A stretch of DNA of 64,000 nucleotides, from contig JAHXIQ010000007.1 of NCBI GenBank assembly GCA_025655555.1, forward strand, positions 1 through 64,000, given 5' to 3'. The position numbers and the translations under genes were made by a program. This stretch comes from Candidatus Thiodiazotropha sp. (ex Myrtea sp. 'scaly one' KF741663) (lineage in GTDB: Bacteria; Pseudomonadota; Gammaproteobacteria; Chromatiales; Chromatiaceae). Under the pieces are notes generated by a model, which had not been told where the DNA came from, did no database searches, and saw only the letters and a program-made list of their open reading frames with translations. Of the stretch, positions 105-1,896 are shown in pieces; the stretch's first letter is position 1; every line of letters starts with the position of its first letter.

Positions 105-584
105 ATGATCAAAGTTTTAATCACTGGAATCGCATGTGGCACCATTGGCTGGTGGCTTGGCGCTGAAAGCAACTCCATTGATTGGACGACTCTCGAGGAA
201 TCTCAACGGCAAGAGTTGTATGGCCAAATGCACCTCGATTATCAGCCAGCCCAAATGCGCCAATTGAAAATCGGAGATTCAACAGTCGTTTTTCCATCCA
301 CTGCCAACTCTAAATCTTGGCAGTTTATTCACGTAATCACTCCCAGTTACACCGCGTCGCTGTCCGAGCTTTTCGCAACAATCAGGTTCGGCGCAAAAGA
401 TTCCGTGTCGGTTTCTGATCTCAATCGGGATGGCGCATACGAACAACTAGAAAACACGTTCCCGAATGAGCAAGGTGTAGAAGTATCGCTGGTCGACCGA
501 AATCGCGATGGCGTGGTTGATGTGGCAATGGTAGGAGAAGAAGTTGTTTCAAGCTATGACGCAAGCTCTAACAAGCGACTGTGA
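105..584 (+). CDS. Cassette-borne hypothetical protein with two Ca-binding-like repeats
   Basis: This 159-residue protein is not recognised. Its N-terminus (residues 1-20) is hydrophobic with glycines and may be a signal peptide or membrane anchor. Two acidic stretches, DLNRDGAYEQLE and DRNRDGVVDVAM, look like the DxNxDG calcium loops of EF-hand or dockerin-like repeats and suggest an exported protein. It lies between a GTTAG core at 87-93 and a CTAAC core at 568-572, so it is the gene of an integron cassette. The last codons (AAC AAG CGA CTG TGA) run into the attC site, and the TGA is probably contributed by the inserted IS element, so the present C-terminus may differ from the original one. 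No function can be assigned. Confidence 0.6.
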   Translation: MIKVLITGIACGTIGWWLGAESNSIDWTTLEESQRQELYGQMHLDYQPAQMRQLKIGDSTVVFPSTANSKSWQFIHVITPSYTASLSELFATIRFGAKDSVSVSDLNRDGAYEQLENTFPNEQGVEVSLVDRNRDGVVDVAMVGEEVVSSYDASSNKRL

Positions 585-599
585 TGCTTTGTCAACCTG

Positions 600-1550
600 T
601 TAAGCATATTTTTCATCCCATGGCGTGTTATCACGCAGCATGGCATTCAGGATGGTAATCATCTTTCTCATGCATGCTGTGAGAGCGACTTTTTTGTGTT
701 TACCGTTCTCCACGAGGCGCTGATAGGTATTACGGATGAGGGTGTTATGTTGAATGGAAGTCAGCATGGACATAAACAACACGGTTCGCACACTGGATCG
801 CCCACCGCGTATGCGACGTTTACCCCGCAACTTACCGCTGTCTCGATTAAAAGGTGCAACACCGACCAAGGCTGCGATCTGCTTATTGGTGAGCGTACCC
901 AGTTCAGGCAGATCGGCGAGGAGGGTATTGACGACCTGTGTACCGATACCGGGTGCAGAGAGCAGGATATCCCGTTTCACTCGCCACTCATCAATCGTTT
1001 CTACCAGATCCGCAATCATGTGATCGAGTTTATCGATTTGCGTCTGCAGATGACGGATGTGGCGTCGAATATCGGCAGAGAGATTCTTTGGCATGACATC
1101 CAATCGGTTCTTCTCCATCGTACTCATTTCGATGAGCTGGCGACGACGAGCGATCATATCCTTGATTTTGCGGATATTCCCAAGTGCCAAAGGGCGAACC
1201 TCGGGTTGCATGACTGCAGCATAACTGGCCAACACCTGGGCATCGATCTTGTCGGTCTTGGCCAGGATACCCTTGGCACCGGCATAACGCCGTACCTTGA
1301 TGGGTTGGCAGATAACGACGGGGAATCCCCGTTCGGTGGCGGCGAGCACCAGATCGTATTCACGTCGTCCAGTGGCCTCGACAACGATTCTGGCCAGCGT
1401 GTACCGGGCCAAGCGACCCAGCAGATAGCGGATGCCTTGGGGATCGTTGGGGACGGTAAAATGGAGACCACGTTCATGGATAGCGATATCCAACTGAAGT
1501 TTGCCGACATCGATGCCGACGTTCACAGCATTTTCTCTGTTCTTAGGCAT
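600..1550 (-). CDS. IS110-family transposase (DEDD recombinase)
   Basis: The 316-residue protein has the N-terminal DEDD (RuvC-like) domain: [10 protein letters not shown] near residue 12, VVEATG near 57, and [11 protein letters not shown] near 98 with the last acidic pair. The C-terminal Transposase_20 domain has SAPGIG near residue 199, [12 protein letters not shown] and the [11 protein letters not shown] helix that carries the catalytic serine. Length and domain order are normal for the family and I see no frameshift, so it may be active. Family members act with a structured bridge RNA encoded at the element's own end to choose donor and target. The reading frame starts directly after the long non-coding left end. 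The + strand frame covering the same DNA is a shadow. Confidence 0.93.
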
Positions 1551-1788
1551 TGTTCAAAAACCTCGCCCTTGCTAAATTCGGGCTTGTGGGCCCATTCGAC
1601 TGTTCGAGATAAAGAGTGAATCCATGCAGCGCCACACGCTTGTTAACGGTCTCAGCAATGCTGGAGCCAGTCGTCAATCGAGCTACTGCATGGATAACCT
1701 GGTGCCACAGGTTATGGGCCCACATTATTCGCTTTGGATGGGAAATTCGACCATACAAGCAAGTCAAGACCGTTCGCTAATCGCTCAC
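1551..1788 (-). ncRNA. Candidate IS110 bridge RNA region (left end)
   Basis: About 240 bases lie between the IS left border and the transposase start, with no credible gene. Read on the transposase strand it contains several potential hairpins, for example ATAACCTG/CAGGTTAT around positions 1693-1715. It also contains TAACAAGCG (complement of 1637-1645), identical to the target attC arm at 569-577, and CGACTGG a little upstream in the RNA direction, identical to the reconstructed attC sequence across the insertion point. Those two matches are what target-binding loops would be expected to show. The RNA's ends and fold were not computed. Confidence 0.5.
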
Positions 1789-1896
1789 TGGGACTTTTAA
1801 AAAACGGCGCTTCGCTATGCTTTTTAAAAGCCCCTTACTTAAGTCGTTAGCGGTCGTCATGGCTTATATACAATCAAGTGACCACGGATAACTAAT

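Follow-up and report, generated by a model that had tools for sequence, protein, structure and literature searches.

The start of the analyzed stretch of Candidatus Thiodiazotropha DNA (64,000 nucleotides, hereafter the window) harbors an insertion sequence that interrupts an attC site between integron cassettes. The element occupies 1184 bp on the minus strand (576-1759), from the core dinucleotide CT of its left end (1759-1758) to a right end terminating in ...ACAGTCG at position 576, as judged from an intact empty site in genome G003 and from the ends of sibling elements. It encodes a transposase of 316 amino acids (600-1550, minus strand), which is oriented antiparallel to the cassettes and is preceded by 209 and followed by 24 non-coding bases. 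The Pfam domains DEDD_Tnp_IS110 (PF01548) and Transposase_20 (PF02371) were both matched, and the protein scored 207.8 bits with the NCBIfam model NF033542 'IS110 family RNA-guided transposase', which has a cut-off of 140. ISCro4 (E 6.1e-33) and IS621 (E 2e-29) were the only relatives found among the solved structures of the PDB. In an alignment with IS621 the residues D, E, D and D and the S-G pair line up by eye, with residue roles taken from the accessible sections of PMC11208158. The transposase combines a DEDD RuvC-like domain with a Transposase_20 domain containing the catalytic serine, as is typical for the IS110 group. The original prediction of an IS110-type element is supported by these matches, and the 209 bases upstream of the transposase agree with the long non-coding end on the 5' side that it described as the layout of the IS110 subgroup.

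The upstream cassette reading frame (105-584) has no Pfam match; its stop codon lies, by eye, inside the right end of the element, and the insertion therefore changes its C-terminus. The cassette gene at 1897-2298 belongs to the glyoxalase/bleomycin-resistance superfamily, with all 14 listed NCBIfam scores far below the cut-offs. Head-to-tail repeats of approximately ACAATAGGGGACAGACCACGGTTTATAGTA were seen by eye at 3152-3241, right after the last cassette.

Boundaries of the element and its attC site

Sibling alignment and end analysis placed the core CT at both ends of the element, on the left at 1758-1759 and on the right at 574-575 (both minus strand), where TGTTAG from the R'' box of the attC comes next. 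An intact copy of the predicted empty site, TAACAAGCAAGTCAAG, is present in one of 22 genomes of the genus, the sister genome G003. If the flanks in the window are joined and compared with this site, the first 18 bases are unchanged, insertion point included, and beyond them there is good similarity to the G003 attC up to the end of R'. The intact empty site and the unchanged joint across the insertion point thus delimit the element to 576-1759. A search of its own genome with the element returned the element itself, a short remnant and, for window positions 1763-1794, a stretch at C1:780716-780746. This stretch and its counterparts in attCs of the same genus are part of the attC and have the form TAAC-6 bases-GTCAAG or one close to it. 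The remnant (G000:C3:570865-570927) comprises 63 bases of the right end at 94% identity with CACAGTCGCATGTTAAT at its edge and represents a decayed copy. A very similar attC (L038) carries a different element, with a transposase 53% identical, at the same position. No relative of the element was found in the collection of viral contigs, and the search of plasmid DNA revealed no place with 80% coverage of the element.

The original prediction, as far as its wording can be interpreted, had set the boundary near 1790-1796. This boundary was rejected, as 1763-1794 recurs in attCs without the element and the empty site is intact in G003, and the non-coding left end, given as 240 bases, is reduced to 209. 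The proposed match of CGACTGG to the rebuilt attC was rejected with it and is an artefact, because bases 1760-1796 belong to the attC and not to the element.

The attC itself consists of an R'' part, CTAACAAG, at 568-575 (plus strand), identified with the arm-pairing test, and a remainder at 1760-1850 (plus strand) with L'' AAGT-C-AAG (1761-1768), L' CTT-ACTT (1834-1840) and R' GTTAG (1846-1850), which has a homologous empty attC in G003. The element-free site reads CTAACAAGC-AAGT-C-AAG ... CTT-ACTT-AAGTC-GTTAG and harbors the R''/R' boxes and one extrahelical base. Its L'' and L' arms form seven of seven pairs, and none of 200 shuffles paired equally well. The earlier claim that the element sits in an attC arm is therefore borne out by the boxes and the arm pairs of the rebuilt site. 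The insertion separates R'' from L'', and its transposase opposes the cassettes; in transposase orientation the target reads ...CTTGACTTG-CT-TGTTAG.

Sibling elements were obtained from a contig scan, of which 80 of 107 relatives were taken, and from genome searches that added more; plasmid stretches supplied the copies of Vibrionaceae and Pseudoalteromonas. The 66 element records yielded a table of 50 rows. Eleven records without a recognizable left end were dropped, and L047, L056, L057, L062 and L154, all located outside the attC branch described below, were left out of alignment A1 after they were seen to lack the motif. The right end (RE) was not found in five of the 50 rows and one flank was too short, hence the denominators 45 and 44. 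The left end and guides of L024 are identical to those of L005 from the same genus.

At least six of seven arm pairs were present in 30 of 43 rebuilt sibling sites, compared to 2.1% of shuffles, in this explicit arm-pairing test, which was picked after the sites had been inspected in whole-site folding and which replaced two weaker tests. The remaining 13 of 43 sites failed, and the sites of L030 and L037 resemble, by eye, coding DNA. The test covered 43 of the 50 rows and left out L042, L044, L053, L088 and L089 for lack of an RE, L043 because of a contig end, and L027; the latter, with a TAAC-free flank, may count as a miss. Whole-site folding separated poorly, with a score of at least 12 in 19 of 43 element sites and 48 of 300 controls. 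Duplex energies reached -8 in 11 of 43 element sites versus 46 of 341 controls, -10 in 5 of 43 versus 26 of 341, and -12 in 0 of 43 versus 13 of 341, so that stricter cut-offs gave the element sites no advantage. As controls, the folding and duplex tests used TAACAA sites from these same loci, among which there may be real attCs.

The predicted bridge RNA and its guides

The non-coding end upstream of the transposase was analyzed for a bridge RNA. A covariance model built from 29 sequences, with the window's clade at 70% identity excluded, detected a predicted RNA at 1563-1726 (minus strand) with 133.5 bits and an E-value of 1.4e-32, and the fold check proposed with the original prediction turned out in its favor. 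Among the 150 of 567 candidates scored in its own genome, this was the sole match at E <= 0.001. Four other loci of the window's clade (five matches) and the held-out elements L157 and L158 gave E-values from 1.6e-21 to 3.8e-33. Outside the attC branch 18 loci were scanned; seven gave no match and 11 matched with E-values no higher than 1, the best being 2.2e-11. No match was obtained in the window with Rfam at gathering thresholds.

The consensus fold of 44 aligned non-coding ends contains 30 pairs, 22 of which show at least one pair-preserving double change. It comprises a 5' hairpin, the closing stem of the target loop together with a small hairpin inside this loop, and the tip of a donor loop. 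In the window, the co-varying pairs place the 5' hairpin at 1694-1715 (A1 columns 78-94) and the target-binding loop at 1622-1693 (columns 101-176), with 1686-1693 and 1622-1629 forming the closing stem (both minus strand). Little or no variation was seen in four of the 30 pairs, in which the start of the left end (LE) meets the putative right donor guide. TAACAAG and the left guide fall in unpaired consensus columns. When the window sequence is folded on its own (1551-1735), the minimum fold (-68.9 kcal/mol, z -3.77) pairs part of the target loop, including part of TAACAAGCG. Thus the objection that this segment might fall into a stem fails for the consensus fold but applies in part to the minimum fold. 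Two guide loops with co-varying stems in an RNA upstream of the transposase, as predicted here, are characteristic of the IS110 group.

The original prediction was based on TAACAAGCG, which occurs only twice in the 64 kb, at 569-577 (plus strand) and at 1637-1645 (minus strand). By chance 0.35 occurrences are expected in this length, and two or more were found in 4 of 100 shuffles; a single 9-base match is weak on its own. At 569-577 only TAACAAG (569-575) corresponds to target and core, while CG (576-577) already belongs to the right end of the element. In the RNA copy, CG stands where IS621 has its handshake guide, and the nine bases are therefore interpreted as a target guide of seven bases followed by a handshake guide of two. 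The sequence is thus located in the target loop as proposed, and seven of its bases copy target and core, but the last two fit the right end.

The right target guide UAACAAG (1639-1645, minus strand) is complementary to the core CT and TGTTA. Among the siblings the guide is the exact complement of core and flank in 41 of 44 sites, in three variants: 34 with UAACAAG, four with UAACAAA, found in Vibrionaceae with a TT core, and three with UAACCAG, where the flank is GGTTA. The misfits are L027, L032 and L020. As this 7-base match is exact in 41 of 44 sites and shows compensatory changes, it is above chance, and the co-variation of loop and flanking bases expected from the prediction is observed. 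Likewise, no table row with a readable flank had UAACAAG at an unrelated site (CTTGTTA in 34 of 34); UAACCAG occurred at (T/C)GGTTA in four of five rows and UAACAAA at a TT core in four of four. The exceptions to this agreement are L027 in the table and L157 outside it, which carries the guide UAACAAG at the flank CTTGTAT. Of the elements found later, L158 fits both the right guide and the donor guide, and L157, which has a stop codon in its transposase, only the donor guide.

According to the accessible text of PMC11208158, the handshake bases of the IS621 bridge RNA fit the element's own end. The putative handshake guide CG (1637-1638, minus strand) is complementary to the last two right-end bases. 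In 40 of 45 elements the base following UAACAAG fits the terminal base of the right end, and in 29 of 45 both bases fit, values reached in 0 of 10000 permutations. The left donor guide ACAGUCG (1597-1603, minus strand) equals the right end, exactly so in 43 of 45 elements and in six variants, including ACAGTCG, ACAGTCA, ATAGTCT and ATACTCG. Since the right-end search pattern fixes part of the donor motif, only the variable positions test this guide. The putative right donor guide UUUAGCAAGG (1567-1576, minus strand) is a discontiguous complement of the LE start CTTGTATGG and contains a conserved GCAAG block; its role is assigned by analogy to IS621.

The left target guide UUGACGACU (1669-1677, minus strand) contains UUGAC, which corresponds to the L'' side of the attC (complement of 1763-1767). 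In the window only UUGAC and CU fit, and the middle bases do not. Across the sibling table the longest run shared with the element's own left flank averaged 4.0-5.2, compared to 2.5-3.7 with the flanks of others. A 50-row version of this test replaced a first version with 40 pairs. Permutations reached the observed value in 0 of 10000 cases overall and, depending on the setting, in 6-63 of 10000 within clades of 70% identity. No single clade was decisive (336 to 2524 of 10000; 2450 of 10000 as high in the Marinobacter-type clade). The left guides differ between hosts, with UUAAA/UUGAA in Vibrionaceae, GCCUGC-like sequences in Marinobacter and UUGAC/UUGAAC in the window's clade. Co-variation of guides with target and donor is as expected for the IS110 group, with the left target guide weaker than the others. 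The same applies to the arrangement, as the left target guide (LTG, bottom strand) precedes the right one (RTG, top strand) and the core is CT/NT; the order is described in the accessible part of PMC11187229 and the core in that of PMC11208158.

Phylogeny, mobility and the circle junction

A tree of 88 transposases contains one branch (support 100/100) with 47 members, which include all 42 transposases with an attC-type flank. The branch members without this label are L027 and L157 (flank misfit), L043 (contig end) and L042 and L044 (right end not found). The label was assigned by pattern, as an RE motif plus a TTGTTA-like flank, and with this pattern no attC-type flank was detected for the 41 transposases outside the branch. 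The tree is midpoint-rooted, has long branches elsewhere and includes no named IS1111 reference.

Genome G004 harbors three copies with alike transposase scores and the same non-coding ends in three different flanks, all with TTGTTA (L123, L007, L019). When these sites are rebuilt, only one of the three passes the arm test, and no GTTA/GTTG box lies within reach in the remaining two. In locus L025 two copies of the same element (1063-1273 and 3321-3531) lie approximately 2.3 kb apart in two sites that both pass the arm test. On a Vibrio alginolyticus plasmid record (L144, 5324-13124) a cassette block encoding a hypothetical protein, a GNAT protein and a DUF6232 protein forms a tandem repeat whose units are separated by an attC-type IS110 copy, an arrangement that suggests an array duplication or an assembly repeat. 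G004 also contains a separate IS110 family of nine copies, approximately 30-32% identical. The six of them that were examined (L131-L136) all follow, by eye, a GTGCGGC...GCCGCACC palindrome, and this family is perhaps aimed at a REP-like repeat.

The predicted circle junction of the element in the window reads TTGACA-18-TATGGT. A promoter-like pair is present at the predicted circle junctions of 39 of 45 elements, compared to a mean of 1.2 and a maximum of 4 for shuffled junctions. The same test on integrated joints was positive for 1 of 45 on the left and 9 of 45 on the right side. A similar scan of the integrated region (500-2400) detected no promoter-like site, with an average of 2.8 in shuffles.

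Interpretation and relation to known systems

The element is very probably a bridge-RNA insertion sequence of the IS110 group that resembles IS621 and has a target loop directed at integron attC sites, a function deduced from sequence. The evidence for this is strong and comprises the boundaries, the empty site, the co-varying RNA stems, the co-variation of guides with target and donor, and the single supported branch. The element would leave as a circle, and its RE-LE junction would form a promoter for expression of bridge RNA and transposase. The right target guide would pair with the core CT and TGTTA, that is with the R'' integrase box, the left target guide with the L'' side, and the donor loop with the element's own ends. 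The transposase would cut beside the core, and the circle would enter the stretch that separates R'' from L'', leaving transposase and attC in opposite orientations.

This arrangement resembles IS621 and the IS110 group, for which the accessible sections of PMC11208160 and PMC11208158 describe an upstream RNA with target and donor loops, LTG followed by RTG, handshake bases, a CT core with a less fixed first base, and a transposase with DEDD and Ser residues. IS621 also rebuilds a promoter at the RE-LE junction (PMC11208158, accessible text), like the junction predicted here. In contrast to IS621, the target in the window is an integron attC, with the right guide on the R'' box and the left guide on the L'' side. 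In the portion of PMC11187229 available, the IS110-type ISEc21 is described with an upstream RNA and a bottom-strand match before the top-strand complement, as in the window, but it targets genes of certain IS3-family transposases, at the codons surrounding the second catalytic D. Group II introns of the class C-attC type are likewise mobile and enter attC sites, usually antiparallel to the cassettes; however, they are retrotransposing introns and thus another class of element (PMC9229058, partial text). The same text counts five IS110 insertions in Shewanella integrons and reports that no IS was detected interrupting attC sites, and PMC11089894, in its available part, lists IS110 (IS1111 group) transposases among cassette genes.

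It is very unlikely that the copy of the target arose by chance or inheritance, with the transposase alone recognizing the attC, e.g. as a folded hairpin, and the non-coding end having another role. TAACAA was frequent in the attCs seen, so that a fixed UAACAAG need not be a guide, and in several clades the left guide fits loosely. However, changes in the right guide go along with changes in the target (UAACCAG with GG, UAACAAA with TT), and donor guide and right end co-vary in six variants; the region folds as a co-varying RNA, and the IS110 relatives examined without UAACAAG have other flanks.

Even less credit is given to membership in the known IS1111-attC group, which shares the kind of target and the DEDD transposase superfamily. 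According to the accessible part of PMC11187229, which cites Tetu and Holmes 2008 and Post and Hall 2009 on this group, attC targeting is described for the IS1111 elements ISKpn4, ISPst6 and ISPa25, and the group differs from the element in the window by an RNA downstream of the transposase and the reverse order of target matches; subterminal inverted repeats are a further trait of the group. Here the non-coding region lies upstream, with only 24 bases downstream, although the same source notes exceptions to the position rule and the tree included no named IS1111 element. The bottom-strand match precedes the top-strand complement, which is the IS110 order given there. No end repeat was seen beyond one 7-base word that the two ends share away from the tips (offset 46 in the left end, offset 18 in the right end when reversed); the subterminal repeats of IS1111 elements measure 7-17 bp. 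ISCro4 and IS621 were the only PDB relatives found. Virtually no weight is left for an element reaching to about 1790-1796 with CGACTGG as part of its guide: ACTG is common to both joints drawn in this way, but the recurrence of 1763-1794 in element-free attCs and the intact empty site CTAACAAGCAAGTCAAG contradict it.

Beyond the single element, a whole IS110-group clade is rather likely to be specialized in integrons, in Thiodiazotropha-like hosts, Marinobacter, Halopseudomonas, Cellvibrionaceae, Pseudoalteromonas and Vibrionaceae. Its bridge RNA would read the R'' and L'' boxes of attC, with the right guide remaining on R'' and the left guide rewritten for each host attC, a natural and repeated reprogramming independent of the IS1111-attC group. 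While attC targeting is already known for the IS1111 group, no report of an attC specialist of the IS110 group was found in the literature searched, of which coverage was partial.

Because the element separates R'' from L'', cassette movement should be hindered while it is inserted. The element and its relatives form a natural set of RNA-guided recombinases that share one kind of target, have guides altered in evolution and come with a known empty site. The rules of bridge-RNA specificity, including the right guide, the loose left guide, the handshake bases and the choice of core, would thus be testable from natural variants. The finding also suggests that insertion into integron attC sites is a habit of a second group of RNA-guided insertion sequences.
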